This document shows, in pieces, positions 7,796 to 44,463 of a stretch of 44,463 nucleotides of DNA. A program made the translations under genes and the position numbers. The DNA comes from a bacterium. GTDB lineage: Bacteria > BMS3Abin14. The stretch covers positions 1 to 44,463 of the forward strand of contig JARGFZ010000022.1 in the NCBI GenBank assembly GCA_029210965.1. The letters are read 5' to 3'. The notes under the pieces were generated by a model. The model had not been told where the DNA came from. It did no database searches and saw only the letters and a list, made by a program, of their open reading frames with translations. How positions within the stretch are numbered: the first letter of the stretch is position 1; every line of letters starts with the position of its first letter.

Positions 7796-7810
7796 GAGGA
7801 GGTTTACAAG

Positions 7811-9016: not shown

Positions 9017-9030
9017 GGAGAGGCTTTCTT

Positions 9031-10061
<1,031 letters not shown>

Positions 10062-10128
10062 TACGGGAGTTGTGTTGAGTGAGAAGATCGTTTTCTAGTA
10101 AAATGTCAGTATTGGATGTTCCCAAGGT

Positions 10129-10166
10129 TCCGGCAGTCCTCATGGGTGATCCCAGGGGGCTGCCGG
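10129..10166 (+). promoter_or_regulatory. Hairpin between oxalate oxidoreductase and TTT genes
   Basis: CCGGCAG (10130-10136) pairs with CTGCCGG (10160-10166), continued by CC/GG inside with one mismatch. It could be a partial terminator or an mRNA-processing site separating the enzyme genes from the transporter genes. No T-run follows directly. Confidence 0.4.
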
Positions 10167-10302
10167 CGCCGTGGGACTTTCATGCAAACTCTTACAGATT
10201 TTTCGAAAGGGGGTGTGCCGACAAAGAGCATAAATGTTAAGCGATGACTTAGGGGGGTTAATGTGGTGTCTAGGTTTTTCCTTTCAAGGAGGTGTGAAGA
10301 CC

Positions 10303-26156: not shown

Positions 26157-26948
26157 TCACACATTAGGTGTCATCCCGGAAAGCCTTCTGGCCAGATCAC
26201 ATAAAATCGCGGAATATTTCTCTTCAAATTCCACCAGGGAATGATCCAAGGTAGTAGAGGTAAAAGAAATCGCACCAATTGGTCGCCCGGTGTTTTGATT
26301 AAGAATGGGGGCCCCTATGGCAATCAGGCCCTTAATATATTCCTCGTTGTTTATGGCATACCCTCTTTCCCTGACCGAAACCAGATCAGCATACAAACCC
26401 TCCTTGTTGACAATTGTCTGGTCAGTTCGAATTTCAAAAGATTGGTGATTGATCAGTTCCTCAAGCTCATCTTCCGGAAGGTTTGCAAGCACTGACTTCC
26501 CTGTTGCCGTAAAGTACAAAAAATCGCTTATTACATCCTGATGATAGGTCAGGGTGGTTGTAGTTTCAATATTATATATTTGAACCATTAAACCTGACTG
26601 GAAAAGTGAGACATCGATGCTTACATGATATTTATTGTGTATTTCATCCACAAGCGGTTTAATAAGCCGATTAAAGTCAAATCCGCTGAGAATACGGTTA
26701 CCCAGAGCCACAGCCATGGGTCCTAACCGCAGCAATTTCGATTTATTGTCCTTATTCAAGTACCCCAATTTAATAAACGTGTTCACAAGTCTATACGTAG
26801 AAGTAAGATTGATCCCTGTTTTTGCAGCGGCTTCGGTCAGACTCCATGCTGAATTCCTGTCATCAAACAGGTTAAGAATCCGCAATCCTTTTTCCAGGGT
26901 CTTTGCATAATAGTCCATTGGTCGATTTGCCATGATGAAACCTTTCAT
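26157..26948 (-). CDS. IclR-family transcriptional regulator
   Basis: This 263-residue regulator (or 258 from the internal Met at 26933, MANRPMDYY) has an N-terminal winged HTH (about 10-75: KTLEKGLRILNLFDDRNSAWSLTEAAAKTGINLTSTYRLVNTF) and a C-terminal GAF-like effector domain ending with the conserved RRLSG. IclR proteins control catabolism of aromatic and small carboxylic compounds. It is divergent from the catabolic genes starting at 27247 and probably binds the palindrome at 27140-27162 over their promoter. The gene is visibly more A+T-rich than its neighbours, suggesting separate origin. Confidence 0.9.
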   Translation of the reverse strand: MKGFIMANRPMDYYAKTLEKGLRILNLFDDRNSAWSLTEAAAKTGINLTSTYRLVNTFIKLGYLNKDNKSKLLRLGPMAVALGNRILSGFDFNRLIKPLVDEIHNKYHVSIDVSLFQSGLMVQIYNIETTTTLTYHQDVISDFLYFTATGKSVLANLPEDELEELINHQSFEIRTDQTIVNKEGLYADLVSVRERGYAINNEEYIKGLIAIGAPILNQNTGRPIGAISFTSTTLDHSLVEFEEKYSAILCDLARRLSGMTPNV

Positions 26949-27246: not shown

Positions 27247-28629
27247 ATGGCAAAAAACGCATTGCCAATAAATAACCTCGATATCATCAGAAACGATTAT
27301 CTGTTCTATCAGTCGCGAAAAAAAATGCCTTTCATCCAAAGGTCCGAAGGCATCTACATCTGGGATCAAACCGGCAAGAAGTATCTCGACGGCAGTTCGG
27401 GGGCGGTCAACTGCAATATCGGACATGGCAACAAACGTGTTGTCAACAGGCTCACCGAGCAGGCTCACAATGCTGTATTCGCCTATCGGACCCAGTTTGA
27501 AAATGAGCCGGCTCACCGGTACTCCGCCGAACTGATGAAGTCTCTGGCGCCCCATCTGCAGCGGGTCTTTTTTGTCTCCAGCGGCTCGGAAGCGGTAGAG
27601 TCGGCGATCAAGCTTTGTCGGCAGTATTTTTTTAATCATGGTCAGAAATCCAGATACCAGTTTATCAGCCTGAACCCTTCCTATCATGGCTCAACCCTTG
27701 GGGCGCTGGCGCTCACCTCTTACGCCCCGCTGGAAATCCCCTTCCGGCCGATGATCAAGTCCCATCCCAAGATACCGGCCCCCTATTGCTACCGCTGCCA
27801 ATTCAACAAAAAATCGCCCTGCAACCTTGAATGCGCCTGGGCTCTCGAAAAGGCTATCATCGAGCAGGGTCCGGAAAGTGTTGCCGGTTTTGTCGCCGAG
27901 CCGATCGGCGGTGCCAGCACGGGCGCGGTCGTCCCGCCCAAGGATTATTTCGGTGTGATCGAGCATATCTGCAGGAAATACGGTATTTTTCTCATCCTTG
28001 ACGAGGTGATGACCGGTTTCGGGCGCACAGGAAAAATGTTTGCCTACGAGTACTGGAATGTGGATGCCGATATCGTCGTCATGTCCAAAGGAATGACCGC
28101 CGGGTATTATCCTCTTGGGGCCATTGCGGCCCGCACCGAATACGTGGACGAAATGATGGACAAGGGCGGGTTTTTCCACGGCCATACGATGGCAGGTAAC
28201 CCCATGGGCTGTGCCGTCGGGCTGGAGGTGCTCAACGTGATCACCGAAAACCGCCTGAGCGAAAACGCGGCGCGGATGGGGAAAGTTCTAAAAAACGGGC
28301 TGGAGCGCCTGAGGAAACGGTTTGAGTTCATTGGCCAGGTGCGCGGCCAGGGGCTGCTGCTCGCCATGGAACTGGTGCAGGATCGCAAAACACGCGAACC
28401 GTTTCCGGCTGAACTGAATATGCACTTTCTCCTGACAGATGAAGCCTACGCTGAAGGACTGATCATCTACCCGCGTCGACCGATTAACGGTCTGGAGGGG
28501 GATCATGTGATGGTGTCGCCGCCGCTGATCTCCACCCGGAAGGAGATCAATGAACTGCTGGCGCTTCTGGAACGCGCTCTGGAACGCACCGAGGCCAGAC
28601 TGCCTGCGACCACCAAAATGCCATTATGA
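27247..28629 (+). CDS. Class III PLP aminotransferase (probable beta-amino-acid/omega type)
   Basis: This 460-residue fold-type I aminotransferase has SSGSEAVESAIKL (PLP phosphate loop), ILDEVMTGFGRTGKM and the PLP lysine in SKGMTAGYYPLGA. An insert carries four cysteines, C181-x2-C184-x7-C192-x3-C196 (CYRC...C...C), a pattern repeated in the second aminotransferase of this island. The stop overlaps the CoA-transferase start by 4 bases. An enzyme that makes a 3-oxoacid right before a 3-oxoacid CoA-transferase and thiolase should act on a 3-amino (beta-amino) acid; I propose 6-acetamido-3-aminohexanoate, but that is inference from context. Confidence 0.85.
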   Translation: MAKNALPINNLDIIRNDYLFYQSRKKMPFIQRSEGIYIWDQTGKKYLDGSSGAVNCNIGHGNKRVVNRLTEQAHNAVFAYRTQFENEPAHRYSAELMKSLAPHLQRVFFVSSGSEAVESAIKLCRQYFFNHGQKSRYQFISLNPSYHGSTLGALALTSYAPLEIPFRPMIKSHPKIPAPYCYRCQFNKKSPCNLECAWALEKAIIEQGPESVAGFVAEPIGGASTGAVVPPKDYFGVIEHICRKYGIFLILDEVMTGFGRTGKMFAYEYWNVDADIVVMSKGMTAGYYPLGAIAARTEYVDEMMDKGGFFHGHTMAGNPMGCAVGLEVLNVITENRLSENAARMGKVLKNGLERLRKRFEFIGQVRGQGLLLAMELVQDRKTREPFPAELNMHFLLTDEAYAEGLIIYPRRPINGLEGDHVMVSPPLISTRKEINELLALLERALERTEARLPATTKMPL

Positions 28630-29321
28630 TCGACAAGACCATATCCGGCGATAAAGCCTTAAGACAGGTTTTGGACGGTCAGACCATCATGGTCGGCGGT
28701 TTCGGCGGACCGGGTACGCCCTTTATCCTCATCGATCTCCTGCAACAGCAGGGGACAAAAAAACTCACGCTGATAAAAAATGATGCCAATGAGCCGGGAA
28801 TGGGCATTTCCAAGCTGTTGGAGGCGGACCAGGTGCAAACTCTGATCGCCTCCCACATCGGTCTTAATCCGACGGCGGTAGCCATGATGAACCGGAAGGA
28901 GATCGAGGTCCTGCTTTACCCGCAGGGGATCCTGGCGGAAAAGATCCGGGCCGGCGGGGCCGGCCTTCTTGGCTTTTTGACCGATATCGGAGTCGATACC
29001 ATTTTGCGCGAGAGCCGGCAGGTAGTGGATCTGGACGGGCGTGAGGCAATTTTAGAGAGGGCACTGCGCGCTGATGTGGCGCTGATCCACGCGGCGGTTG
29101 CCGACCCGGTCGGCAACCTGATCTTTTCCAAGAGCGCTCGAAACTTTAGTCCCCTGATGGCGACAGCGGCTGACACGGTCATCGTTGAAGCCGAAAAGGT
29201 CGTCGCCACCGGCATTCTCGATCCGGACCAGATCCATCTACCGGGCGCCTTTGTCGACCATATCGTGGAGCTTGATGAACTCACCCCGGAATATGGAGTA
29301 TTGCCCCAGCATGCCCTATAA
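28626..29321 (+). CDS. 3-oxoacid CoA-transferase, subunit A
   Basis: This 231-residue family I CoA-transferase alpha subunit (AtoD/ScoA-like) has the conserved opening DGQTIMVGGFGGPGTPFILIDLL and GNLIFSKSARNFSPLMATAA. The start ATG sits in ATGA overlapping the aminotransferase stop. With subunit B it would transfer CoA from a donor such as acetyl-CoA or succinyl-CoA to a 3-oxoacid, preparing it for the thiolase encoded two genes on. Confidence 0.9.
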   Translation: MIDKTISGDKALRQVLDGQTIMVGGFGGPGTPFILIDLLQQQGTKKLTLIKNDANEPGMGISKLLEADQVQTLIASHIGLNPTAVAMMNRKEIEVLLYPQGILAEKIRAGGAGLLGFLTDIGVDTILRESRQVVDLDGREAILERALRADVALIHAAVADPVGNLIFSKSARNFSPLMATAADTVIVEAEKVVATGILDPDQIHLPGAFVDHIVELDELTPEYGVLPQHAL

Positions 29322-29961
29322 AATGAAGATAGCCGCCCGCGCGGCCCGGGAGATCCAATCGGGACAGGTGATCAATCTCGGGATCGGCATCCCGACCATG
29401 ATCCTCGATTATCTGCCGGCAGGTATTGAGGTCTTCGTCCAGTCGGAAAACGGCATCCTCGGCATCGGGCCGCGCTGCAGCAGGGGAACCGAGGATCGCA
29501 ACCTGATCGATGCCGGTGCCAACTATGTAACCATCACCCCTGGCGCCTCCTTTTTCGACAGTGCCCTTTCCTTTGCCCTCATTCGCGGGGGGCGGGTGAA
29601 CATCACCTTTCTCGGCACCCTGCAGGTTTCAGCTAACGGCGATCTGGCTAACTGGATTATCCCTGGGGTGATGGCGCCCGGCATAGGCGGCGGGATGGAA
29701 CTGGCCCAGAAGGCGCAGCGAGTGATCGTTACCACATCCCACACCACCCGGGAGGGGGATCCCAAGATTCTTGCCCACTGCACCTTGCCGTTGACAGCGC
29801 GGGCCTGCGTCAAGACTATTATTACCGAACTGGCGGTGATCGACGTGACGCCCCATGGGCTGATGCTGCGGGAGATCGCGCACGAATCGAGTCTAAGGGA
29901 AGTACAGGACAAGACGGATACGCCGCTGCTTTTCCCCGCAGAGGAGATCCCCTGGTTTTAA
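29311..29961 (+). CDS. 3-oxoacid CoA-transferase, subunit B
   Basis: From the ATG at 29311 (11-base overlap with subunit A) the product is 216 residues; ATG 29323 is an alternative. The catalytic glutamate is in the SENGILGIGPR motif (about residue 50). INLGIGIPTMI and the GGGMELAQKAQRVIV segment fit AtoA/ScoB. The longer upstream frame to 29185 is only the shadow of subunit A. It forms the A2B2-type enzyme with the preceding product. Confidence 0.9.
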   Translation: MPYKMKIAARAAREIQSGQVINLGIGIPTMILDYLPAGIEVFVQSENGILGIGPRCSRGTEDRNLIDAGANYVTITPGASFFDSALSFALIRGGRVNITFLGTLQVSANGDLANWIIPGVMAPGIGGGMELAQKAQRVIVTTSHTTREGDPKILAHCTLPLTARACVKTIITELAVIDVTPHGLMLREIAHESSLREVQDKTDTPLLFPAEEIPWF

Positions 29962-29994: not shown

Positions 29995-31263
29995 ATGAAT
30001 GCCCAGGAGAATAAAATACTGACCACTGTCGATGCCCTGGCCGATGATATCATCGATTTTGCCGGGCGACTGGTACGACAGCCCAGCACGCTCAAGAACG
30101 AAGCGTCGGCTATGCTGGTCATGGAAAATGAGCTCAACCGCCTCGGTCTGGAGCCGGTTCGGGTGCCCATCGATCCAGTGGAACTGGCAGCGCATCCCGG
30201 ATTCGCCACGGTCCCCTGGGGCTACGAGGGACGCTTCAATCTGGTTGCTACGCGTCCGGCGGATGGCTCTGGTGGTCGAAGTGCTCTGCTGAACGGCCAT
30301 TTGGACGTTGTGAGTCCAGAGCCGGTGGAATTCTGGAACACAGACCCCTTCAACCCCGTGACCCGTGACGGCTGGCTGTATGGGCGTGGGGCCGGAGACA
30401 TGAAGGGCGGGGTGGCGGCCATGACCTACGCCCTCCACGCTGTGGAAAAAGCCGGCCTTGGCCTTCGCGCGCCGGTGACCCTGGAGGCTGTCATCGAGGA
30501 AGAGTGCTGCGGCAACGGGGCGCTGGCCTGTCTGGCCGCGGGTTACGACGCCGAGGCGGTCCTCATCCCCGAGCCGTTCGGGCCGACCCTGTATACCAGC
30601 CAGGTCGGAGTTCTATGGTTCAAAGTCCGAATGCGTGGTGTGTCCTGCCATGTTCAGGCCACAGCGGCGGGGATCAACGCCATAGAAAAAAGCTATCCCA
30701 TCATTGCCGCTCTGCGCCGACTGGAAGAGGTGATGAACGGTGAGGAACGCCCCGATGCCTATCGCGATATCAGCCACCCGCTCAACCTGAACATCGGTAT
30801 CTTCAAGGGAGGCGATTGGCCTTCCACTGTCCCGGCCGCCGCACAATTCCATGGCCGCCTCTCCTTTTTTCCAGGCACCCCTTACGAGGATGTCTGCTGC
30901 CGCATCCAGGCTGCGGTGGACGAGGCGGTGCAAGCCGATCCATGGCTGGCGGAAAATCAGCCTGAGGTGGAATTCTATGGTTTCCGGTCCGAAGGCCACA
31001 CGCTCAGTCGGGAACTGCCGGCTTTGGCGGCCCTGAACGGCTGCCATCACACCCTCACCGGCCGGGATGCGGAAACCTACATCTCCACCTGCACTACCGA
31101 CCTGCGGGCCTTCCACTTTTTCGGAAAAGGGCAGGGGACCTGCTATGGCCCGGTGGCGGAGAACGTCCATGGTGCCAACGAGAGGGTCAAAATCGACAGC
31201 ATCCTGCATGTGGCAAGAGCTTATGCGCTTTTTCTCGCCCGTTGGTGCCAACTGGCAGAGTGA
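29995..31263 (+). CDS. M20-family metallohydrolase (ArgE/DapE/acylase type)
   Basis: This 422-residue dizinc deacylase/peptidase has metal ligands in LNGHLDVV (about 100), GRGAGDMKGG (about 133-142), EEEC (about 165) and a C-terminal NVHGANE His. The inserted lid domain (about 205-320) is typical of M20 enzymes that act on N-acyl amino acids. No signal peptide, so it works in the cytoplasm. Between a CoA-transferase and a thiolase it most likely removes an N-acyl group from the substrate or an intermediate, for example 4-acetamidobutyrate to GABA. Substrate is inferred from neighbours only. Confidence 0.85.
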   Translation: MNAQENKILTTVDALADDIIDFAGRLVRQPSTLKNEASAMLVMENELNRLGLEPVRVPIDPVELAAHPGFATVPWGYEGRFNLVATRPADGSGGRSALLNGHLDVVSPEPVEFWNTDPFNPVTRDGWLYGRGAGDMKGGVAAMTYALHAVEKAGLGLRAPVTLEAVIEEECCGNGALACLAAGYDAEAVLIPEPFGPTLYTSQVGVLWFKVRMRGVSCHVQATAAGINAIEKSYPIIAALRRLEEVMNGEERPDAYRDISHPLNLNIGIFKGGDWPSTVPAAAQFHGRLSFFPGTPYEDVCCRIQAAVDEAVQADPWLAENQPEVEFYGFRSEGHTLSRELPALAALNGCHHTLTGRDAETYISTCTTDLRAFHFFGKGQGTCYGPVAENVHGANERVKIDSILHVARAYALFLARWCQLAE

Positions 31264-31294: not shown

Positions 31295-32497
31295 ATGCGG
31301 AACGTGGTGATCGCCGGTTATTTGCGGACAGCCTGCTCCAAAGTGAAATTCAGCGAACCGGGGAAGGATTGGTTCAGTACGCTGCGCGCCGATGACCTTC
31401 TGGCCGAGGTGATCCCGGCATTGCTGCAGCGAAGCGGGACCGAGGGCGCCGAGGTGGATGATCTTATCGTCGGTTCGGCGCTGGGGGTGAGTGAGCAGTG
31501 GACCTGCGGCGGCCGCACCGCCGTTTTCCTCGCCAACCTGCCGGCGCAGGTTCCGGCCAGGTTTATCGATCAGCAGTGCGGCTCTGGCATGGCGGCGATC
31601 CACACCGGTTTTCTGGAGATTGCCGCCGGCTATGCCGATGTGGTCCTGGCTGCCGGAATGGAACACATGGGGAGGGTGCCCATCGGTCCGACCCTGTTCG
31701 AGAAAGGCGCTCTTTCCGTCAACCCCCGCCTTTACCGGGAGGAACGGTTCCGGCACTGGGACATGGAAACGACTATGCACATGGGGTTCACCGCCGAAAA
31801 GCTCTGCGCCGTGAGCGGTTTCAGCCGCGAAGATCTCGATCTATGGGGTGCCCGCTCCCACCAACGGGCGGCAAAGGCGCAGCTGGAGGGTTTTTTTGAC
31901 GGCGAGATCCTTCCGGTCGAGGCCCGACAAGACCACGGAGAAGTCATGAGTGTCGCCCGCGACCAGGGCATTCGTGAGAACGTCAAGCCGGAAGATATGG
32001 CGAAACTGGCACCGGTATTTCGCCCCGATGGCCTCATCACGGCCGGCAACGCCTCGCCCCTGAACGCCGGGGCCGGTGCCCTCCTGCTGATGTCCGGAGC
32101 AACCGCCAAGAGTAAGGAACTTGAGCCCCTCGCAACCATCCGATCCATCGGCTTTGCCGGCGTCGACCCCACCCTGATGGGTACAGGCCCGGTTCCTGCG
32201 GCGCGAATGGCGCTGAAGAAGGCTGGCCTTGAACCCGCGGACATCGATTACTGGGAGATCAATGAAGCCTTCAGCATCGTCGTACTTAATGCGATCAGGG
32301 AGTTGGGAATTGACCCCGAAAGGGTCAACGTCAACGGCGGTGCCATCGCCATCGGGCATCCCCTTGGGGCCACCGGCATTCGGCTGGTGGGAACGCTGGC
32401 CCGCATCCTCAAGGCCAGCGGGGCCCGCTTCGGCTGCGCCGCAGCCTGCATCGGGGGCGGTCAGGGGATCGCGACCATCATTGAAAGAACGGGCTGA
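31295..32497 (+). CDS. Thiolase (acetyl-CoA C-acyltransferase)
   Basis: The ATG at 31295 follows AAGGGAG and gives a 400-residue thiolase. Catalytic features are all present: nucleophilic Cys in QQCGSGMAAIH (about residue 90), NEAFS, GGAIAIGHPLGATG with the base His (about 355), and the second Cys in CAAACIGGGQG (about 385). It is a degradative thiolase splitting a 3-oxoacyl-CoA to acetyl-CoA and a shorter acyl-CoA. It completes the aminotransferase, CoA-transferase, thiolase series encoded just upstream. Confidence 0.93.
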   Translation: MRNVVIAGYLRTACSKVKFSEPGKDWFSTLRADDLLAEVIPALLQRSGTEGAEVDDLIVGSALGVSEQWTCGGRTAVFLANLPAQVPARFIDQQCGSGMAAIHTGFLEIAAGYADVVLAAGMEHMGRVPIGPTLFEKGALSVNPRLYREERFRHWDMETTMHMGFTAEKLCAVSGFSREDLDLWGARSHQRAAKAQLEGFFDGEILPVEARQDHGEVMSVARDQGIRENVKPEDMAKLAPVFRPDGLITAGNASPLNAGAGALLLMSGATAKSKELEPLATIRSIGFAGVDPTLMGTGPVPAARMALKKAGLEPADIDYWEINEAFSIVVLNAIRELGIDPERVNVNGGAIAIGHPLGATGIRLVGTLARILKASGARFGCAAACIGGGQGIATIIERTG

Positions 32498-32662: not shown

Positions 32663-33430
32663 ATGTACAAAGTTCTAGTGTCCACCATGTTAGTTGCCGT
32701 GTTCTTAATGGTATCCAACCCCAGCGCCGCTGAAGAGCTAGACAAGGTCCGCAAGGCGGGCGAGATAAGCTTTTCCATGAGCGGCCAATACCCACCGTTC
32801 AATTTTGTCGATGAGAACAATAAATTGACCGGTTTCGATGTTGAAGTCTGCAGCGAGATCGCCAAACGCATCGGCGTAAAGCCCAAGCCTGTGACCACTG
32901 CCTGGGATGGAATTATCGCTGGTCTGCTGGCAGGCAAGTACAATTTGATCTGCGGCAGTATGGCTATCACCGAGGCACGTCTCGAGGCCATCGACTTTTC
33001 GGACCCCTATTACCGTTCCGGCGCCCAGCTCTTTGTGGCCAAAGACTCGAAGGTTACCTCGGCGGACCAGCTGAACGGTAAGAAAGTCGGCGTAACCCTC
33101 GGCACCACCTATGAGGAGTGGGTACGGAAGAACCTTGCCAGAGTGGATGTTCGCACCTATAAGGGCGTCCCCGACATGATCCTTGAAATGTCCAATGGCC
33201 GTCTTGATGGTTTCATCACCGACCGCATCGTTGGCGCCATGGCGATCGCCGAAAAAGGCGCGCAGCTTAAACTGGCCGGTCCCCTGCTGTACGAAGAGCG
33301 GATGGGGATCGCTCTGACCAAGGAAAATCCCAAGCTTCGGACGGCCATTAACGAGGCCATCGCAGCGATGCAGAAGGACGGCTCCTACCGTGACATCAGC
33401 CTGAAGTATCTGAAGATCGACGCACGCTGA
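32663..33430 (+). CDS. Polar amino-acid ABC transporter, periplasmic binding protein
   Basis: This 255-residue family 3 solute-binding protein has a signal peptide (residues 1 to about 24, ending NPSAAEE; no lipobox Cys). The mature part has GQYPPFNFVDENNKLTGFDVEV and DFSDPYYRSGAQLFV, the family's ligand-binding blocks. GAAGGAGG precedes the ATG. It would capture a charged or omega-amino compound for the permease and ATPase encoded next. A ligand such as acetyl-beta-lysine or GABA would suit the island, but sequence does not decide. Confidence 0.92.
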   Translation: MYKVLVSTMLVAVFLMVSNPSAAEELDKVRKAGEISFSMSGQYPPFNFVDENNKLTGFDVEVCSEIAKRIGVKPKPVTTAWDGIIAGLLAGKYNLICGSMAITEARLEAIDFSDPYYRSGAQLFVAKDSKVTSADQLNGKKVGVTLGTTYEEWVRKNLARVDVRTYKGVPDMILEMSNGRLDGFITDRIVGAMAIAEKGAQLKLAGPLLYEERMGIALTKENPKLRTAINEAIAAMQKDGSYRDISLKYLKIDAR

Positions 33431-33446
33431 TCATTCATTTTCGGAA

Positions 33447-33493
33447 GCTTATCCCTGCAGGGAAGAACCGGCTGTGCCCCTGCAGGGATAAGC
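33447..33493 (+). terminator. Perfect 16-bp stem-loop after the ABC receptor gene
   Basis: GCTTATCCCTGCAGGG (33447-33462) and CCCTGCAGGGATAAGC (33478-33493) pair perfectly. Located 17 bases after the receptor stop and before the permease, without a T-run, it should act as a 3' stabiliser or processing site giving excess receptor mRNA. Confidence 0.65.
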
Positions 33494-33518
33494 ACTGGCG
33501 AACCAACCAGCGAAAAGG

Positions 33519-33558
33519 TTGATGGGCTCGTAAAAAGCTTCGCACAGGCTTTTTAGGG
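33519..33558. repeat. MITE-like hairpin element, degenerate copy 4
   Basis: TTGATGGGCTCGTAAAAAG resembles the left terminus of the element family, and AAAAAGC/GCTTTTT (33532-33538 and 33548-33554) forms its hairpin. Internal and right parts are lost. Confidence 0.4.
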
Positions 33559-33620
33559 GATTTTAAATGTTGAGTTGAATGTAGGCCAAAGCAGGAAACA
33601 GTCACGGGAGAAATAAAACA

Positions 33621-34277
33621 ATGCTCGACTGGCAAGTTATTATCCACTATTTCCCCTTTCTTTTGAAAGGGGCGGTGCTTACGCTGGAGATCTCGGTGAT
33701 CTCCCTCGTTCTCGGGCTGGTTGTCGGCCTGGTGGCGGCCCTGTCCGTACTCTCCCATAACCGTCTGCTGCGGTGGCCAGCCCTCTTTTATGTCTGGATC
33801 ATTCGTTCGACGCCCCTTCTGGTGCAGCTGTTCATCATCTACTTCGGCCTGCCCCAGTTCGGGATCGATCTCAGTCCGTTCTGGTCAGGGGTGTTGGGGC
33901 TTGCCTTGAACACCGGCGCCTACAACGCAGAGACGATCCGCGGCGGCATCCTTGCAGTGGACAGGGGGCAACGTGAGGCATCGCGCTCTCTCGGCATGAG
34001 CGGTGCACTGACCATGCGCCGCATTATCTTGCCGCAGGCCATGCGCCTGATCATTCCGCCCCTGGGCAACAATTTCATCATCCTCATCAAGGACTCCTCG
34101 CTGGTTTCCACCATTACCCTGGTCGAACTGACCTTGACCGCTCAGCGCCTGATCGGGTCCACCTATAAACCGTTCGAGATGTATCTGATGGCCGCTGTGC
34201 TTTATGCGGTACTGACCTCCTGTGCCGCCCTGCTGTTGGGCTATGTCGAGCGCCGCACCACCTGGGGACACGCATGA
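33621..34277 (+). CDS. Polar amino-acid ABC transporter permease (HisMQ type)
   Basis: This 218-residue permease has about five membrane helices. The N-terminal [29 protein letters not shown] and the EAA loop [32 protein letters not shown] (about 115-145), which contacts the ATPase, are diagnostic. A single permease gene implies a homodimer. Its stop overlaps the ATPase ATG (ATGA). Confidence 0.94.
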
Positions 34278-35059
34278 GTGTCACGGAGAACATCCAAATG
34301 GCTATGGAACCGATGATCCGCCTGAAAGACCTGAGAAAAAGCTTCGGCAAGCTCGAGGTTCTCAAAGGGATCGATCTTGACGTGGCGCGCAGTGAGGTGC
34401 TGGTGCTGATTGGGCCGAGCGGGTCAGGCAAGAGCACCCTCCTTCGATGTGTGAATAACCTGGAAACCCCGACGGGGGGCGAGGTCACAGTGGACGGTGA
34501 ACGGGTCAACCGGACAGATCTGTCGCCGCGAGCCTTCCAGAAGCATCTCAACCGTGTCCGTACCCATATGGGCATGGTATTCCAGCATTTCAATCTCTTC
34601 CCCCACAAGACGGTGTTTGAGAACATCATCGAGGGGCCGACACAGGTGCTGCGCAGGAACCGTGAGGAGATCACGACCGAGGCGCTGGAATTGCTTGATA
34701 AAGTAGGGCTGGAGGAGAAACGGGACAACTATCCGGCGCAGCTTTCCGGCGGACAGAAGCAGCGAGTGGCCATTGCCCGTGCTCTTGCGATGAAGCCATC
34801 AGTGATGCTTTTCGACGAGGTGACGAGTGCGCTCGATCCCGAATTGGTGGGAGGGGTGCTGAGGGTCATGGAGGGGCTGGCCATCGAGGGCATGACCATG
34901 ATCGTGGTTACCCACGAAATGGGTTTTGCCGAGGGGGTTGCCGACCGTGTGGTGTTCATGGACGATGGTCTCATCATAGAGGAGGGAGTGCCGAAAGAGA
35001 TTTTCAGCAACCCTCGCGAGGAACGCACAAAACGGTTTCTCGCAGATGTGTTCAAGTAA
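34274..35059 (+). CDS. Polar amino-acid ABC transporter ATP-binding protein (GlnQ type)
   Basis: This 261-residue ABC ATPase has Walker [10 protein letters not shown] from residue 47, Q-loop [12 protein letters not shown], signature [15 protein letters not shown] from about 157, Walker [15 protein letters not shown] and switch THEMGFA. An alternative start at 34310 ([12 protein letters not shown]) would be closer to the usual 240-residue length. Energises import by the neighbouring receptor and permease. Confidence 0.95.
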
Positions 35060-35072
35060 GGAGAACGGAAGA

Positions 35073-36419
35073 ATGCTGAAAGGTGATGAGATGCCCCAAA
35101 AAGGGCAAGTCCAGGGTGCGATGACCAAGTCCCTTCTTGAGAAAAAGGAGCAATACGTTGCCAGAGGGATTTCCAATCTTGCGCCGATTTTTGTCCAGAA
35201 CGCCAAGGGGGCCGTTATCCAGGACCTTGACGGGAACACCTATATCGATTTTTACGGTGGGATCGGCGTGGTCAATGCCGGACACTGCCCGGAAGGGGTC
35301 GTCAACGCCATCAAGGAGCAGGCGGAAAACCTGTTGCACTCCTGCTTCATGGTGGGCATGTACGAACCCTACGTGAACCTCGCCGAAAAATTGGTGTATA
35401 TCACTCCCGGCGATCACCCTAAAAAGGCCATGCTGGTTAATAGCGGTGCCGAGGCGGTGGAAAATGCCGTGAAAATCGCCAGGGCCCATACTCATCGCCC
35501 CGGAATTATCGCCTTCGAGGCCGGCTTCCACGGCCGCACTCTGCTCACCATGACCCTGACAAGCAAGGTCAAGCCCTACAAACACGAGTTCGGCCCCTTC
35601 GCCCCCGAGGTCTACAAGGTTCCGTCTGCCTACTGCTACAGGTGTATCTACCGGTCCACCTATCCCGAGTGCGGCATGCATTGCCTGGAATATTTCGAGC
35701 GCTTTTTTGTCAGTGAAGCGGACCCTTCCAATATTGCCGCCATGATCATCGAGCCGGTGCAGGGTGAAGGTGGATTCATCGTACCACCCATGGAATTCCT
35801 CCCTGGGCTGAAGAGCATCTGCGAAAAGCACGGCATCGTTTTTATCGCCGACGAGGTCCAGACCGGTTTTGCCCGGACCGGGAAAATGTTCGCTGTGGAG
35901 CACTTTGGGGTGGTCCCAGATCTGATGACCCTGGCAAAGGGGATCGCCTCGGGTATGCCGCTCAGTGCCGTGGTCGGCAAGGCCGAGATAATGGATAGCC
36001 CTACTCCAGGGCGTATCGGCGGCACCTACGGCGGCAATCCGCTTTCCTGTGTTGCCGCGCTGGCCACTATTGACCTGATAGAGAAGGAGAACCTTCCCGT
36101 CCGGGCCGAGAAGATCGGTTCGGTGATCGTCGCCAGGATCAAGGCGCTGCAGCAGAAGTACCACCAGATCGGCGATATCCGGTCACTGGGGGCCATGGTG
36201 GGCATCGAACTGGTCAAGGATATCCAGACCAGGGCACCCCACAAGGAAGCGACCACGGCCATCATCCATGAGTGTTTCAACCGGGGGCTGCTCACCATGG
36301 GCGCGGGCATCTTCAGTAATGTGGTGCGGTTCCTGCCTCCGTTGGTGATCACCGACCAGCAACTCGATACCGCTATTGCAATCTTTGAGGAATCCCTGGC
36401 GGCGGTTCTGGGCAAGTAG
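35073..36419 (+). CDS. gabT: 4-aminobutyrate-type aminotransferase (class III)
   Basis: From the ATG at 35073 the enzyme has 448 residues. It follows GabT closely: RGISNLAPIFVQNAKGA...DGNTYIDFYGGIGVVNAGH, MLVNSGAEAVENAVKIARAHTHR, FHGRTLLTMTLTSKVKPYK, EPVQGEGGF, IADEVQTGFARTGKMFA and the PLP lysine in LAKGIASGMPLSAVVG. It should convert GABA (or a similar omega-amino acid) plus 2-oxoglutarate to the semialdehyde and glutamate. Like the first aminotransferase it has a four-Cys insert, C188-x2-C191-x8-C200-x3-C204. The glutamate dehydrogenase encoded next would recycle the amino acceptor. Confidence 0.88.
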   Translation: MLKGDEMPQKGQVQGAMTKSLLEKKEQYVARGISNLAPIFVQNAKGAVIQDLDGNTYIDFYGGIGVVNAGHCPEGVVNAIKEQAENLLHSCFMVGMYEPYVNLAEKLVYITPGDHPKKAMLVNSGAEAVENAVKIARAHTHRPGIIAFEAGFHGRTLLTMTLTSKVKPYKHEFGPFAPEVYKVPSAYCYRCIYRSTYPECGMHCLEYFERFFVSEADPSNIAAMIIEPVQGEGGFIVPPMEFLPGLKSICEKHGIVFIADEVQTGFARTGKMFAVEHFGVVPDLMTLAKGIASGMPLSAVVGKAEIMDSPTPGRIGGTYGGNPLSCVAALATIDLIEKENLPVRAEKIGSVIVARIKALQQKYHQIGDIRSLGAMVGIELVKDIQTRAPHKEATTAIIHECFNRGLLTMGAGIFSNVVRFLPPLVITDQQLDTAIAIFEESLAAVLGK

Positions 36420-36510: not shown

Positions 36511-39500
36511 ATGAGCGCCGTTTCTGAAGGCAGCCTGTTTGACCAGATCAAGGAGGCAGCCAGCCGCAACCATGGCCATGTGGAAGAGAACCTGGCCTGG
36601 CTCAAGGAACAGATGCACCACTACTTCTTCCTCACCAACATGGACGAGGTGGAGGCGGTCGCAGCCCTGGCTGCCGCCCTGCACAACCTGAGACATAACC
36701 GCAAACTGACTCTGGTAGACCGTGAAAAGCTTCTGATGCTGGCGCAGACAGGCGTGCCTGGGTCTGTGTACCAGGCGCTGAGAAGCCTGCCGGAAAGGGA
36801 GATCTCCTACGCCCAGATCACCACCTCCTATGCGCCCATTCCCGGGACATTTCATCCTCTGGAGGTGCTGCGGTTTGCCTTCGACCGCAAGGAGGATGAG
36901 GAGATCGCACGCTGCGGCCAGCCCCTGATTCCCCGGCCGACTAAAAACGCCATTGCCAGGACATTAAAACAGGACTACCCCGGCTTCGACCACGAGGATC
37001 TGGAAAAGCTTATAAGCATCCTCTGGCTCAATAATGAGCAATACGTCCGGATTCCCCCCGCCGAACGGGTGGCCCGGATCCTATGGCTTTACCAGCAGAC
37101 AACGCTGCACGGGGGGATATATCTGGATATTCAGGAGACAGAAGGGCCGGGCGGTGCGCCGGAATCACGCCTTCTTTTCGGGGTCGGCAATCCTCCGCAG
37201 GGAGGTTATTTGCTGCAGATCCTGGAGGTCTTTAATCGTCTGCGGCTCGGGGTCATGAGGGCCTACTGCCTGACCATCAGCACCGGCGTCCATCCTTATT
37301 TCCTGGCGGGTTTTTACGTAAACGCCCAGGGAGGCGAGAAGGTTGAAAAGGATTCCGCGCTGTTCCTGCGGTTGAAAGAAGAGCTTTACAACACGCAGAT
37401 TCTGCCTGCCTCATCTGAGGCATACCAGGAGTTGATCACCAACGGTGTTGCCACCGGCGCCGAGGCTTCCCTGATCCGGGCCTTCGTTGGTTTTTGCCAC
37501 ACCAATCTGGCGCATAACCACCCGGACAGCTTCGATCTTGAAGGGGTCACGCGGGCCTTTCACAACCACCCGGACATATCCCTGCAGCTGGTCAAACTGT
37601 TTCGTGTACGGTTCGATCCGACCATGGCTGACCGCGAGTCGCTCTACCTGCAGACCCTCGAAGAGACGACGCAGCTTATCGAAAAATTCAACACAGGGCG
37701 CCGGTTCCTGGACGAATTCCGGCGGACGGTCTTCCGCTGCGGCCTCTACTTTATCCGTCACACCCTGAAGACCAATTTTTTCGTACCGGAAAAGCATGCC
37801 CTGGCCTTTCGCCTTGATCCAGACTATCTGGCTGAGCTTGACGATGAGTTTACCTGCGACCTGCCGCCCGAGCGTCCCTACCGGATCACCTATTTTTCCG
37901 GCCGCTACGGTTCGGGCTACCATATAGGCTTTACCGATATCGCTCGCGGTGGCTGGCGCACGCTGATTACCCAAGGTCGCGACGACTATGTCACCTGTGC
38001 CAACACCCTCTTCAGAGAAAACTTTGTTCTGGCCTACACCCAGCACCTCAAGAATAAGGATATCTACGAGGGGGGTTCCAAGATGGTGACGGTACTCGAC
38101 GCCGGGGGGGAGAAGGATCAAAAAACGGTGACGCAGCGCCTTTACAAGCTCCAGTACGGTTTCATCAATGCCTTCCTTGATATTCTCATCACCGAGAATG
38201 GCAAGGCCAGGGATCCTCGGGTGGTCGATTATTACGGCCAGGACGAGCCGGTAGAACTGGGCCCTGACGAAAACATGCACGACGCGATGGTCGAACTGGT
38301 CGCCCGCCAGGCGGTCAAACGGGGCTACCTGCTTGGCGCCGGGATCATGTCGAGTAAAATAATCGGCATAAACCACAAGGAGTTCGGGGTGACCTCGACC
38401 GGGGTGATAAGGTTTGCTGAGGTCACCATGGAAGAGCTTGGCCTGAATATGCACACCGATCCATTTACCGTCAAATTCACCGGTGGCCCGAACGGGGATG
38501 TTGCCGGCAATGCCATGAAGCTGCTTTTTGAGCGCTGCCCGAAGGTGAAAATAACCCTCATCGTCGACGGCACCTGCGCCCTTTATGATCCGCGGGGGGT
38601 CCAGCATGAGGCCCTTGCCAGGATCATTCTCAGAGACGATCTCCAGGCCTTCGACCCGAAAGCTCTTCACCCGGGCGGCTTTATCCTCTATCGAAGTCAG
38701 CCGCGTAAGGAGGGGATGAAAAAGCTGTTTAAAAAGGTCGTTTGCAATGCCTCGGGACTTGAGGAGATGTGGGTATCCAACGACGAATTCTACCGCGAAT
38801 ACAGCACCCTCATCTTCACCGTCCCTGCCGACCTGTTCATCCCCGCCGGGGGGAGGCCCGAGACCATCGACTGTGGAAATTGCCACGGCTTTTTCGCCGA
38901 GGACGGCCGCCCCAATACCCGGGCCATCATCGAAGGGGCAAACTCCTTCATCACCCCCGAAGCCAGATTGGAACTGCAGAAGCGGGGGATCGTGATCATG
39001 CGCGACGCTTCGGCCAACAAATGCGGGGTCATCTCTTCCTCATACGAGATCATCGCCAATCTGATGCTGAGTGATGAGGAGTTTCTTGCCGACAAACAAC
39101 AATATGTCGAGGACGTCATCGACATTCTCAACCGGCGGGCCGAAGACGAGGCGAGGCTTATTTTCAAGCGGCACCGTCAGGCAGCAGGGAGCCTTTCCTA
39201 TACTGAAATTTCGGACGGTCTCAGTTCCGAGATTAACGTTCATTACGCCAGACTCTTCGATTTCCTGGAGCAGAATCCCCACCTGTGTGACCAGCCGCAG
39301 TATCGCCAGGCGCTTGTACAGCATCTACCGAACCTTCTTCAAAAAGTCGGGAAATACAGCAAGCGTGTTGCAACCTTACCGGAAAAAATTAAATACGCTA
39401 TTTTGGCCAGCGAAATTGCCTCATCCCTGGTTTACCGGGGCAGTGAGGAGGATGCCTACCGGGAGATGATCGAAGGGCATTTGAGCCGGATGAGTACTTC

Positions 39501-39519
39501 CGGGGCGCCTGGAGTTTAG
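36511..39519 (+). CDS. Large NAD-type glutamate dehydrogenase (about 1000 residues)
   Basis: This 1002-residue protein belongs to the large Glu/Leu/Phe/Val dehydrogenase class. An N-terminal regulatory-type region (1 to about 460) is followed by the catalytic core with GFTDIARGGWRTLI (about 475), YEGGSKMV with the conserved lysine (about 527), EFGVTSTGVIRFAE (about 623), the NAD fold and EGANSFITPEARLEL (about 810). It deaminates glutamate to 2-oxoglutarate and ammonia. TCAGGAGAAAAATAG precedes the ATG. In the island it removes nitrogen collected by the two aminotransferases. It is intact, unlike the three genes after it. Confidence 0.9.
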   Translation: MSAVSEGSLFDQIKEAASRNHGHVEENLAWLKEQMHHYFFLTNMDEVEAVAALAAALHNLRHNRKLTLVDREKLLMLAQTGVPGSVYQALRSLPEREISYAQITTSYAPIPGTFHPLEVLRFAFDRKEDEEIARCGQPLIPRPTKNAIARTLKQDYPGFDHEDLEKLISILWLNNEQYVRIPPAERVARILWLYQQTTLHGGIYLDIQETEGPGGAPESRLLFGVGNPPQGGYLLQILEVFNRLRLGVMRAYCLTISTGVHPYFLAGFYVNAQGGEKVEKDSALFLRLKEELYNTQILPASSEAYQELITNGVATGAEASLIRAFVGFCHTNLAHNHPDSFDLEGVTRAFHNHPDISLQLVKLFRVRFDPTMADRESLYLQTLEETTQLIEKFNTGRRFLDEFRRTVFRCGLYFIRHTLKTNFFVPEKHALAFRLDPDYLAELDDEFTCDLPPERPYRITYFSGRYGSGYHIGFTDIARGGWRTLITQGRDDYVTCANTLFRENFVLAYTQHLKNKDIYEGGSKMVTVLDAGGEKDQKTVTQRLYKLQYGFINAFLDILITENGKARDPRVVDYYGQDEPVELGPDENMHDAMVELVARQAVKRGYLLGAGIMSSKIIGINHKEFGVTSTGVIRFAEVTMEELGLNMHTDPFTVKFTGGPNGDVAGNAMKLLFERCPKVKITLIVDGTCALYDPRGVQHEALARIILRDDLQAFDPKALHPGGFILYRSQPRKEGMKKLFKKVVCNASGLEEMWVSNDEFYREYSTLIFTVPADLFIPAGGRPETIDCGNCHGFFAEDGRPNTRAIIEGANSFITPEARLELQKRGIVIMRDASANKCGVISSSYEIIANLMLSDEEFLADKQQYVEDVIDILNRRAEDEARLIFKRHRQAAGSLSYTEISDGLSSEINVHYARLFDFLEQNPHLCDQPQYRQALVQHLPNLLQKVGKYSKRVATLPEKIKYAILASEIASSLVYRGSEEDAYREMIEGHLSRMSTSGAPGV

Positions 39520-39521
39520 GG

Positions 39522-39746
39522 ATGGAGGTTACGGTCAAGCTTTTTGCTTCCCTGCGCATCGGTCGCTTTTAGCAAGTCTCTCTCGAATACCCCGCGGGAA
39601 CGGCAGCGCGTCAGGTCGTTGAAGAACTGCGGATCTCCGACCATCATCTGGGTCTCGTCATGATCAATGGAGGACACAGCCACGTCGATTGCCAGCTGCA
39701 CGACGGCGACACCCTTTGGTTAATGCCGGTGGTGGCCGGTGGTTAA
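39522..39746 (+). pseudogene. MoaD/ThiS-like sulfur carrier with in-frame TAG
   Basis: Reading from the ATG at 39522, two bases after the glutamate dehydrogenase stop, gives MEVTVKLFASLRIGRF, a TAG (39570-39572), then QVSLEYPAG...LGLVMINGGHSHVD...DGDTLWLMPVVAGG and TAA. The beta-grasp layout and C-terminal Gly-Gly are those of MoaD-type carriers that accept sulfur for molybdo/tungstopterin. All 74 sense codons are in one frame, so a single base change explains the break. It sits with an AOR and a ThiF-like E1, its expected partners, which are also damaged. Alternatives are sequencing error or stop readthrough. Confidence 0.75.
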
Positions 39747-39800
39747 GGCCGGTTCTTCGCCAGGATGTCCTGGAAACAATCAAATCAACGGTGGCAATCT

Positions 39801-39840
39801 CGTAAAAAGTCCCGGATTGGACTTTTTACGACCCTGTCAA
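39801..39840. repeat. MITE-like hairpin element, copy 3 (right end)
   Basis: CGTAAAAAGTCC (39801-39812) pairs perfectly with GGACTTTTTACG (39819-39830) around CGGATT, followed by ACCCTGTCAA. The same hairpin and tail occur at 26113-26150. It lies between the moaD-like and AOR genes, 36 bases before the AOR start. Confidence 0.7.
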
Positions 39841-39876
39841 ATGTGATTATTTTTCAAAAAAGGAGTCTGTTTCCCC

Positions 39877-41741
39877 ATGCTGATCCAAACCAGGAATCCA
39901 ACCATGGAGCCTTCAAAAATACTCTTTCAGCGCTGTACGGTTGACCTTGCAAGCGGTGAGATCAGGTTCGAAGATGTTCCCTGTCGGAACCTCGCAGAGG
40001 TGCTGGGCGGTTTCGGCCGCTCTTTCCAGATGCTTGCCAAGCGGAACATCCGGAAGGCCTACTGCGATGATAACCCTCTGATCGTCAATACCGGCCTGTT
40101 GACCGGCTCGAGCATCATGACCGGGATGAGGACCTATTTCTCTGCCTACAGCCCCCTCAAGGGGTCAAAAAAAGGACTGCCGGCCGCCATGTGATCCGCA
40201 GCCAGCGGGAAGTTTGGAGCGAAGCTCAAATGGACCGGCCTGGATGAGCTGGTTTTCGACAACCGTTCGCCCAAGCCGGTCTATGCGCTGATCAAAGATG
40301 GCGAGAGCGGGCCGGTGGTGGAGCTAAAGCCCGTCGATCACCTGCTCGGGCCCTCCACCCACGAGAAGATCATGACGCTTTACATGGAGTATCCCCGAGA
40401 CGCCCACTTTGCCGCCATCGGTCAGGCCGGCGAGAACTACCTGAACGTCAGCATGGGTGCTGTGGCGCTCTCCACTGTGAACCAGCTCAAGAGTGGAGAG
40501 GCCAAGTGCCGTTTTGCCGGCCGTGGCGGCATGGGCAGCCTCATGGGCTACAAGAACCTGATCGCCCTGGTCGCCCAGAGTACGGACAAACTTGACAAGA
40601 TCACACCTGGAATTAAGAATATCAACATCGAGATCGTCAAGGGTGGGGGCTCGGCCCGTTTCCAGCCAGTCAGCCAGGGCGGCAACGGGGGTACCTGGGC
40701 CTCCTACGAGGTACTGCAGGCTTTTTACGCTGTCCCCGAAAACAATTTCCGGCCCAAGGGGAACGATGAGGTCGAGCAGGTATTCCGGGAGAACGTCGAA
40801 AAAACGATCGACGTCAAGAGCGCCTCCTGTTTCCGGTGCGGCATCCGCTGCCACAACAACATCCACCGCCGCAAACATGACGGCTCAACGGGGGAGTTCG
40901 TGGCCAAATTTAGACTACGAGCCCGTCAACCTTCTTGGCACCAACCTTGGCATCCACGACGCTGGCCAGATCGCCGAAATGTTGAAACTGACCGACCACT
41001 ACGGCATAAACGCCATCTCCCTGGGCACCACTATCGCCTATGTGCTCGAATACAACGAACGGCATCCCGTGAGCCAGATATGCGGTGGGGTGACCTTCGG
41101 CCAATACGAAAAGATTTGTATACTGGTTGAGCAGACCGGTCGCGGCGAGCTTCCCGAGGTCGGGCGCGGCGTCAGGCGCCTTTCGGAGCAGACGGGGGAG
41201 CCCGGCTATGCCATGCAGGTCAAAGGGCTTGAGCTGCCGGCCTACCTTCCCGATCTCAACCCGGGCTACCCCTGGGCGATTGCCGGAGGCCGCATGTCGA
41301 TGGGCACCTACCTGCTGCTGGCCCGGGAGGGCAAAACCGATCTTAACTACTGGGTTGATGCCATAACCGGAAAAGGTTTGCTGATGACCGGTTATGACAT
41401 GATCGGCCTGTGCAAGTTCATCGGGGTGGGGATCGGCCATCGCCTCGTCGGCGAGGCCGTCAGGGAAGCCACCGGGCTTGAAATCAGCGGGGAGGAGATG
41501 GAAGCCGCGGTACGACGTGCTTTCCTGCTCGGGCTGGCGCTCGAGCGTAAGCAGGGCTACGACAAGGGGGAGTACACCCTGCCATCCCGGGTTTTTTGAA
41601 CGCCCCAACCCCAATGTCCAGCTTCCCAGGCTGGTTACCCGGGAGTTCTTTGCCCAGTTGTCGGAAAAGGTCTGGAGCGTCTTCGAACCGGAGATGCCGC
41701 AACTCCAGGCGCCTGTTGGAGAACCCCGCACAGACCCTTAG
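39877..41741 (+). pseudogene. aor: Aldehyde:ferredoxin oxidoreductase (tungsten AOR family), three lesions
   Basis: Joined reading frames give about 620 residues of an AOR-family enzyme, normal length, oxidising an aldehyde to the acid with ferredoxin. The start follows AAAGGAG. Lesion 1: TGA at 40192-40194 between LPAAM and SAASGKFGAKLKWTG. Lesion 2: one extra base near 40912 (AAATTTAGAC; expected Lys-Phe-Asp). Lesion 3: one extra base near 41591 (CGGGTTTTTTGAA; expected Arg-Phe-Phe-Glu), after which ERPNPNVQLPRLVTREFF continues to the stop at 41739. The cluster motif CFRCGIRC is present. In context it would oxidise succinic semialdehyde formed from GABA. Codon-level similarity remains high, so decay is recent, or these are assembly errors. 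Confidence 0.88.
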
Positions 41742-41762
41742 GTGGACAGGAATTTCCAGGCA

Positions 41763-41915
41763 ATGGCTACAGTAACGTCTTATATCAGGAAACGATCTTC
41801 TCAAGAGCTTCTTGACTGGCAGAGCCAGCTCGAGGTTATGAGTCGGTTTGCAATAAGCTGCGCCCAGGTTGAGGAAGAGTCCCTCGTTGCAGGAGTTCTT
41901 CCGTTGCGCTATTAG
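41763..41915 (+). pseudogene. Detached N-terminus of the ThiF-like gene (ends in TAG)
   Basis: A 50-codon frame from ATG 41763 ends VAGVLPLRY-TAG at 41913, and the same frame continues RNQGMISTRQQ into the ThiF-like gene. RY-x-RN-x3-(I/L)S is the conserved start of the E1 fold, so the TAG interrupts one gene rather than ending a small one. Residues 1-40 (SYIRKRSSQELLDWQSQLE...) are a helical leader. Confidence 0.65.
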
Positions 41916-41927
41916 CGCAACCAGGGG

Positions 41928-42581
41928 ATGATTTCAACCCGGCAGCAGCTTCAGCTTTTCCGCAGCAAGGCAGCCGTTGTGGGCTGCGGGGGGTTGGGGG
42001 GATACATCATCGAAGAACTGGCACGCCTGGGCGTGGGCCAGATCGTCGCTATTGATCCCGATGTTTTTGAAGAGCACAATCTCAATCGCCAGGTTCTTTC
42101 ATCCCTGAAGGCATTAGGTGAGTCAAAAGCGGAAAAAGCGGCAGAGAGGGTCGCTGAAGTCAATCCGGCAGTAACGGTGCTTCCGGTCAAAGCGGCATTT
42201 GGTAAGGAAAATGGTCGGGACCTGCTCGGTAATATTGATGTGGTCGCCGCCGCGGTGGACAGCATTCCGACTTGCCTAAAACTGGCCGAGATCTGTAGTG
42301 AACTGGAACTTCCCCTGGTTCATGGGGCAATTGCAGGCTGGTACGGGCATGTCTGCACCATCTTCCCGGGTGAAGTGACTCTCCAGAAAATCTACGGCAA
42401 TTGGGCGTCTGACAAAGGGGTAGAACAGGAGTTGGGCAGCCCTTCATTTACACCGGCAGTGGTTGCGAGTATGGAAACGGCGGAAATCTGCAAGATTCTA
42501 CTTGGCAAAGGAGATTTGCTGCGAGATCGAAAACTGGGAATCAACCTCTACGATATGGAGTTTGATGAGATCCTTTTGTGA
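41928..42581 (+). CDS. ThiF/MoeB/HesA-family E1-like adenylyltransferase (N-terminus cut by TAG)
   Basis: The open frame encodes 217 residues of an E1-like enzyme that adenylates the C-terminal Gly of a MoaD/ThiS-type carrier. It has the nucleotide motif VVGCGGLGGYI (about 18-28), IDPDVFEEHNLNRQ with the ATP-contacting Asn/Arg (about 47-60) and AAVDSIPTCLKL. Zinc CxxC pairs of MoeB are missing, as in many AOR-linked members. The true start is probably 41763, upstream of an in-frame TAG; re-initiation at ATG 41928 would drop the RYxRN arm that reaches the partner's active site. Its likely partner is the MoaD-like product of 39522-39746, for tungstopterin synthesis or AOR maturation. Confidence 0.8.
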   Translation: MISTRQQLQLFRSKAAVVGCGGLGGYIIEELARLGVGQIVAIDPDVFEEHNLNRQVLSSLKALGESKAEKAAERVAEVNPAVTVLPVKAAFGKENGRDLLGNIDVVAAAVDSIPTCLKLAEICSELELPLVHGAIAGWYGHVCTIFPGEVTLQKIYGNWASDKGVEQELGSPSFTPAVVASMETAEICKILLGKGDLLRDRKLGINLYDMEFDEILL

Positions 42582-42855: not shown

Positions 42856-42932
<77 letters not shown>

Positions 42933-43369: not shown

Positions 43370-44158
43370 ATGCAAATGACAAAACTAACCATTACAAACT
43401 ACCGAGCTCGCAGGGACGTGTCCATTCCGTTGTCGCATTTCGGGTGTTTGATTGGAGAAAACAACTCGGGGAAATCCTCCTTTCTACAGGCATTGTCGCT
43501 GTTCTTTTCAGGTTCAAAACTTTCCACTACCAACTACTTTGATGAGGCACAGCCAATACGTATTGAGATTGTCTTCGAAGATATTGGGAATGCCGATTTG
43601 GCAAGGCTTGTTGAAGAACACCGTACTAGAGTCCGTGGAATCATAAAGGCCGGTCGCCTTGTCCTGGTGCGTTCCTATGACACAAATGGCAAAAGTACCC
43701 TTCTCTACAGCACGCTTATTCCCACCGAAGAGCGGTTTGCCCCCGACAGCGTAGCTACCTTATTGAAAAACGGACGTGCCGGACAAGCATTCGTTAACAA
43801 GATAACAGCAGCCTTCCCTGAACTTGACGATATGGTCGATACAAATATGAATCAAGACGCCATGAGGCAGAAGATCCTGGAGCTTGCCGACTCCCTACCG
43901 GATGAGCAAAAGTCAACAGTTGACCTTCCTCTTCCGACCGGAATTGATAAGAGCATTATTCCGATGCTTCCAGACCCTATCTATATCCCGGCGGTCAAGG
44001 ATCTGGCGGATGACATCAAGACGACTGAAAGCACGCCGTTCGGAAAGATATTGGGAATCCTATTGCGAGCAATAGAAACCAAACTTCCATTTGAACCGCC
44101 CCGGTTTTTCCGGAGGCTCCGTTACGTGAGTCCGGCCATCATAGCCGGGACTTCCTGA
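43370..44158 (+). CDS. OLD-family/RecF-like AAA ATPase, truncated by an IS element
   Basis: The 262-codon frame starts MQMTKLTITNYRARRDVSIPL with Walker A GENNSGKSS (about residues 28-36), the layout of OLD-type overcoming-lysogenisation-defect nucleases, many of which are anti-phage defence proteins. Native sequence runs to about residue 240 (LLRAIETKLPF); from base 44092 onward the codons lie in an IS3-family end and add about 21 foreign residues. The second half of the ATPase and the Toprim nuclease domain are missing, so the product is probably inactive. The GGAG site before the ATG is intact. It probably formed part of a defence locus with the HsdR scrap upstream. Confidence 0.75.
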   Translation: MQMTKLTITNYRARRDVSIPLSHFGCLIGENNSGKSSFLQALSLFFSGSKLSTTNYFDEAQPIRIEIVFEDIGNADLARLVEEHRTRVRGIIKAGRLVLVRSYDTNGKSTLLYSTLIPTEERFAPDSVATLLKNGRAGQAFVNKITAAFPELDDMVDTNMNQDAMRQKILELADSLPDEQKSTVDLPLPTGIDKSIIPMLPDPIYIPAVKDLADDIKTTESTPFGKILGILLRAIETKLPFEPPRFFRRLRYVSPAIIAGTS

Positions 44159-44390
44159 CTCTGATAATACAACATTTCGTACTCAGCTGGTGGAATGTAA
44201 CCGATCGGCTCGAGCAACCGCCTATTATTGAACCAGTCCACCCATTCGAGAGTTGCGAACTCCACGGCCTCGAGGTTGCGCCACGGGCCGCGTCGGCGGA
44301 TCACTTCGGTTTTGTACAAACCGATCACCGTTTCGGCGAGAGCGTTATCGTACGAGTCGCCAATGCTGCCGACCGACGGTTCGATCCCGG
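44092..44390 (-). mobile_element. IS3-family insertion sequence, truncated 3' part
   Basis: The end TGAACCGCCCCGGTTTTTCC at 44092 followed by GGAGGCTC is a GC-rich terminus typical of IS3-family elements, and the transposase OrfB C-terminus runs inward on the minus strand. Similarity to the transposase stops at GIEPSVGS (about 44388); beyond it sequence is unrelated. The element is therefore deleted after insertion into the OLD ATPase gene. Confidence 0.7.
44122..44390 (-). pseudogene. IS3-family transposase OrfB, C-terminal fragment
   Basis: The minus strand encodes GIEPSVGSIGDSYDNALAET followed by VIGLYKTEVIRRRGPWRN and EWVDWFNNRRLLEPIGYIPPAEYE, the last part of the DDE integrase core with the catalytic Glu in the NALAET motif. 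The first two catalytic Asp residues are absent. An apparent extension upstream to 44409 (MTKGYSS) is not transposase-like. Confidence 0.8.
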
Positions 44391-44463
44391 ATGAATAACC
44401 CTTTGTCAATTGAGGAACATGAGCTTGTGAATAGGTTAACTTCCGTGATTGGTGACTGGTGAT

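Follow-up and report, generated by a model that had tools for sequence, protein, structure and literature searches.

Positions 39522 to 42581 of the window (the whole 44,463-nucleotide [nt] stretch of DNA analyzed) hold three consecutive interrupted genes and an inverted repeat:

39522..39746, forward strand: pseudogene of worX, a ThiS/MoaD-like sulfur carrier, with TAG at 39570-39572 and the C-terminal Gly-Gly retained
39800..39831, unstranded: perfect 13-bp inverted repeat (loop, 6 bases; fold z = -4.15), located between worX and worL
39877..41741, forward strand: pseudogene of worL, the aldehyde:ferredoxin oxidoreductase (AOR) large subunit, with TGA at 40192-40194, +1 base at about 40912, and +1 base in 41592-41597
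41763..42581, forward strand: pseudogene of a thiF/moeB-like E1 adenylyltransferase (PF00899), with TAG at 41913-41915

All three genes remain recognizable. The whole worX frame matches 7 intact relatives, and the piece following its stop scores 21.3 bits against the Pfam ThiS model, slightly below the cutoff of 22.5. The AOR has no single uninterrupted reading frame, being cut by the TGA and two changes of frame; its open pieces carry both AFOR domains above the Pfam cutoffs (PF02730 at 44.3 and 78.4 bits, PF01314 at 108.7 bits). The [4Fe-4S] ligand motif of the AOR/WOR family consists of CxxCxxxC plus a later cysteine, and both elements (CFRCGIRC and DMIGLC) are still encoded in these pieces. 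The ThiF frame scores 159.6 bits against the Pfam model PF00899 (cutoff, 28.1), and an ATG at 41928, after the TAG, leaves the PF00899 domain open. The only other gene in the genome that exceeds the PF00899 cutoff adjoins a thiG-like gene, so the damaged ThiF has no close spare. The inverted repeat was considered as a dispersed palindromic repeat, a candidate rejected when an exact pattern search found a single copy in the whole genome.

Elsewhere in the window, a tRNA-Met gene at 42856 lies beside an AAA_15-type ATPase frame (43370-44158), and a fragment of an IS3-family transposase (44122-44409) occupies the other strand from that frame, near the contig end. A 793-amino-acid protein with two AAA ATPase domains is encoded at 3619-6000 and, in our estimation, resembles CDC48/p97, here in a bacterium.

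The five lesions in the worX-worL-thiF module fall within 2.34 kb and comprise three changes to stop codons and two frameshifts of one base each. Both TAG codons are in frame, the first in the ThiS/MoaD-like gene and the last in the ThiF frame. Between them, the AOR contains the TGA, an extra base that follows TTT (at about 40912) where relatives read AKFDYEP, and one base too many in the GGGTTTTTTG stretch (41589-41598), whose T-run spans 41592-41597. The sequence-only reading had proposed a joint decay of the AOR, ThiS/MoaD-like, and ThiF genes with frames still family-like, listing five lesions that hit all three genes; each lesion was located again at its claimed position, and the proposal holds. 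Its statement that the glutamate dehydrogenase gene directly upstream is undamaged also proved correct (frame 36511-39519 is open), and the 29 upstream frames of the window, totaling 35,055 bases, contain no internal stops or frameshifts. If lesions were distributed uniformly over coding bases, all five would fall in the 3.06-kb module with a probability of about 3e-6 (calculated post hoc).

The ancestral state of these genes can be read from their relatives. Contigs of other genomes were scanned against the open central piece of the AOR, and the 148 pattern matches yielded nine loci that encode relatives (L022 to L030), which are 63 to 69% identical to it over the central part. All nine loci reside in MAGs named Desulfuromonadales, Desulfuromusa, Desulfuromonas, Geopsychrobacter, or Deltaproteobacteria, and in seven of them a MoaD-like gene lies upstream of the AOR. 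These orthologues encode the same cluster motifs as the window AOR but, unlike it, have intact frames. Compared with solved AORs, the intact orthologue L022 finds only remote homologues (best, 1aor at 7.8e-35), and the AOR has no close NCBIfam equivalog. ThiF orthologues are not adjacent to the AOR orthologue but occur elsewhere, with five found in four of the nine genomes. At two loci of relatives (L056 and L058), the ThiF orthologue adjoins a different AOR and apparent tungstate transporter genes rather than the AOR orthologue.

At each of the three stops, the relatives have sense codons. The position of the TGA is TGG (Trp) in all nine AOR loci; that of the first TAG is AAG or AAA in six MoaD loci and AGA in one (Lys/Arg in 7 of 7); and that of the second TAG is CAG or CAA in four ThiF loci and CTG in one (Gln/Leu in 5 of 5). 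Therefore, these genes were once functional and were interrupted by ordinary nonsense changes and insertions of one base. These residues also bear on programmed recoding, in which selenocysteine or pyrrolysine would be inserted at the stops and the changes of frame would be programmed. The genome does encode a tRNA-Sec (73.2 bits; gathering score, 47), but the TGA site is never Cys in the relatives, and no stable stem-loop follows it (fold z = +0.41), so selenocysteine was rejected. Pyrrolysine at the TAG codons was rejected from the residues present in the relatives and from the two frameshifts that recoding would require besides the stops. We attach almost no weight to recoding of any type.

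The module is probably a recently inactivated set of pseudogenes, the product of ordinary gene loss. In a Tajima relative-rate test with L007 as the outgroup, the AOR was not accelerated relative to seven of eight relatives, and the eighth, L029, is itself faster than the window AOR. Against L022, there were 54 window-specific and 53 L022-specific changes. This test did not show the faster evolution that a broken AOR would be expected to have, and the absence of a rate excess indicates that normal constraint on the gene lasted until recently. The loss is thus recent relative to the divergence of these sequences, as the sequence-only reading had it. In a FastTree phylogeny, the window AOR branches with the outgroup L007 and not among the relatives. 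A leave-one-out comparison found that the window departs at 21 of 207 columns that are otherwise invariant, versus 1 to 9 of 187 to 195 columns for each other row (n = 7, with the incomplete L030 omitted; the F-to-L difference at residue 336, counted among the 21, is an effect of the frame cut), but this count was given no weight because the window is the outermost lineage in that set.

The principal alternative is that the genes are intact in the living organism and that the contig contains local assembly or sequencing errors. The two frameshifts each consist of one added base at or next to a short homopolymer, the assembly is a draft of 157 contigs, and assembly is a known and common source of spurious pseudogenes, according to the available portion of PMC11017572. 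On the other hand, three of the lesions are substitutions to stop codons, and all five fall within a single functional module, with 35 kb of upstream coding sequence clean. The frame at 43370-44158, which is nearer the contig end, and the tRNA at 42856 also appear intact. Moreover, three stops correspond to roughly 84 to 107 random substitutions, or 3 to 4% per base (the Poisson limits span several-fold in each direction), and random error of this extent would bring dozens of amino acid changes, an acceleration that was not seen. The occurrence of three mutation types across three genes argues against one accident. We consider an artifact improbable and favor gene loss, in which the inactivation of one member would free the other two from selection and lead to the decay of all three.

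Immediately upstream of the module is a cluster of catabolic genes, all intact:

26157..26948, reverse strand: IclR-family regulator; orthologue at 60%, beside the aminotransferase in a Geopsychrobacter MAG
27247..28629, forward strand: class III aminotransferase; best model PRK06917; orthologues at 64 to 65% in two Desulfuromonadales MAGs
28626..29961, forward strand: 3-oxoacid CoA-transferase subunits A and B; orthologues at 58% and 62%
29995..31263, forward strand: M20 ArgE/DapE-family deacylase; Geopsychrobacter MAG orthologue at 62%
31298..32497, forward strand: thiolase; Geopsychrobacter MAG orthologue at 56%
32663..35059, forward strand: polar amino acid ABC transporter (binding protein, permease, and ATPase)
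35046..36419, forward strand: 4-aminobutyrate--2-oxoglutarate transaminase (GabT); TIGR00700 at 577.6 bits (cutoff, 506.65)
36511..39519, forward strand: large NAD-type glutamate dehydrogenase, 2 bases upstream of worX

The NCBIfam matches in this cluster include PRK06917, PRK06915, and PRK06918. Degradation of beta-lysine and N6-acetyl-beta-lysine employs an aminotransferase, a CoA-transferase, a thiolase, an M20 deacylase, and a GABA transaminase, leading to 4-aminobutyrate (GABA) and succinic semialdehyde, with precedents in a Pseudomonas route and in the kamA-yodPQRST operon of Bacillus. The full set of these enzyme types for N6-acetyl-beta-lysine degradation is present together in the cluster, but the cluster differs from these precedents in having no lysine 2,3-aminomutase and in ending with an AOR instead of an NAD(P) dehydrogenase. 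The genome's best match to lysine 2,3-aminomutase, on contig C1, scores higher as a glutamate 2,3-aminomutase. On that contig, the aminomutase gene at 9010-10374 of locus L075, whose top match is glutamate 2,3-aminomutase (587 bits; cutoff, 650), adjoins an M20 peptidase gene, and the pair possibly functions in beta-glutamate metabolism.

The upstream genes suggest a route from acetyl-beta-lysine through GABA to succinic semialdehyde, with the AOR as the putative final oxidation. GabT would convert 4-aminobutyrate to succinic semialdehyde, which the AOR would oxidize to succinate while reducing ferredoxin; the role of WorX and ThiF would be to serve the pterin cofactor of the AOR. We infer that the module was the last, aldehyde-oxidizing step of an amino acid catabolic cluster, its substrate being taken from the gene neighborhood only. 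The Geopsychrobacter MAG has a similar arrangement: at L023, genes for the CoA-transferase subunits A and B, M20 deacylase, thiolase, GabT, and a MoaD-like protein precede an intact AOR in that order, and a second contig contains the IclR, aminotransferase, and transporter binding-protein genes. GabT is likewise upstream of the MoaD-AOR pair at L022. Among the seven loci with at least 2 kb of upstream sequence (the window, L022, L023, L025, L026, L027, and L028), GabT is upstream in three: the window, L022, and L023. The other four, L025 to L028, have different upstream genes, which counts against a fixed link.

Two of these loci have additional genes of relevance. At L025, the moaD-AOR pair is preceded by frames that we take to be TupA/TupB/TupC-like (a tungstate transporter) and MoeA-like, which agree with a tungsten enzyme. 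Directly downstream of the AOR at L027 is a presumed aldehyde-dehydrogenase-like frame (7550-9151), whose position suggests that it may be a second aldehyde-oxidizing enzyme for the same pathway.

The sequence-only reading had also proposed a loss of tungsten dependence and advised a search for further AORs in the genome, which is 99.26% complete at 3.19 Mb in 157 contigs. That search recovered three more AOR-family genes (C3:5081-6193, C10:43746-44864, and C4:39562-40602), each full length, free of internal stops, and carrying CxxCxxxC, and two of the three presumably adjoin an iron-sulfur protein gene. Their products are about 22 to 28% identical to the intact orthologue L022, and, from their family membership, they probably bind tungsten. 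The AOR family as a whole is not given up by the cell, and the proposed loss of tungsten dependence is not upheld, given that three intact full-length members persist.

The companion proposal, that another semialdehyde dehydrogenase has taken over, survives in part. A PF00171 search of the genome returned only two genes, ProA and an acylating SauS-like dehydrogenase, and found no gabD-type succinic semialdehyde dehydrogenase; a PF00465 search gave one match over the cutoff (on C7) and two below it. With no gabD-type enzyme found, any replacement would have to be the SauS-like enzyme or another AOR, or else be absent. Succinic semialdehyde might be passed to succinyl-CoA by the acylating dehydrogenase (C15:66716), which is intact and stands as a candidate, or be handled by one of the three intact AORs. 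Such a functional replacement is somewhat doubtful in that the acylating enzyme falls below the SauS cutoff (470 versus 600 bits) and lies in an unrelated neighborhood, and the other AORs are as distant from L022 as their low identities imply.

The decay could instead extend to the entire catabolic cluster, with the AOR module as its first casualty. The class is represented by 12 genomes in the searched set, and is thus probably not that of the Desulfuromonadales relatives; none of its 11 other genomes has the AOR orthologue, and in seven genomes of the same genus or family the M20 deacylase has distant matches only, with no orthologue of >33% identity. These results indicate that the cluster is accessory, and it was possibly acquired; yet every other gene of the cluster is full length and intact, and we regard loss of the whole as rather unlikely. 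The loss of the module itself, as ordinary gene decay, remains our preferred reading.

The gene content of the module resembles that of known tungsten-containing oxidoreductases (WORs). As described in the accessible part of PMC13328260, class I WORs have just one subunit, a large one, in some cases with a ThiS-like WorX encoded nearby, and CsWOR87 of Cetobacterium somerae has worX and thiF adjacent. The window module is similar to CsWOR87 in having one large AOR subunit, adjacent ThiS-like worX and thiF genes, and no adjoining gene for an Fe-S or FAD subunit; it differs in that all three genes are broken and the sequence is distant. No WorS, WorN, or WorABC gene adjoins worL, whose neighbors encode glutamate dehydrogenase, the ThiS-like protein, ThiF, and a tRNA. 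Since its gene content fits that class as delineated in the same portion of PMC13328260, we file the module as a pseudogenized class I-type WOR. Our literature search on AOR pseudogenes returned nothing on point, that on acetyl-beta-lysine breakdown returned nothing clearly on point, and that for "3-keto-6-acetamidohexanoate" returned no match.

From the concerted decay, selection seems to treat worX, worL, and thiF as a single unit. The pseudogene set itself is routine, and its interest lies in the intact orthologues. We offer only tentatively the view that these act as tungsten-dependent succinic-semialdehyde:ferredoxin oxidoreductases in the last step of an anaerobic (acetyl-)beta-lysine-GABA-succinate pathway of the Desulfuromonadales and of this bacterium, with the window catching the module just after its loss. 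If true, this would be a physiological role for WORs beyond those assigned in the available text of PMC13328260. For an uncharacterized AOR subgroup, the neighborhood points to succinic semialdehyde as a substrate that can be tested.
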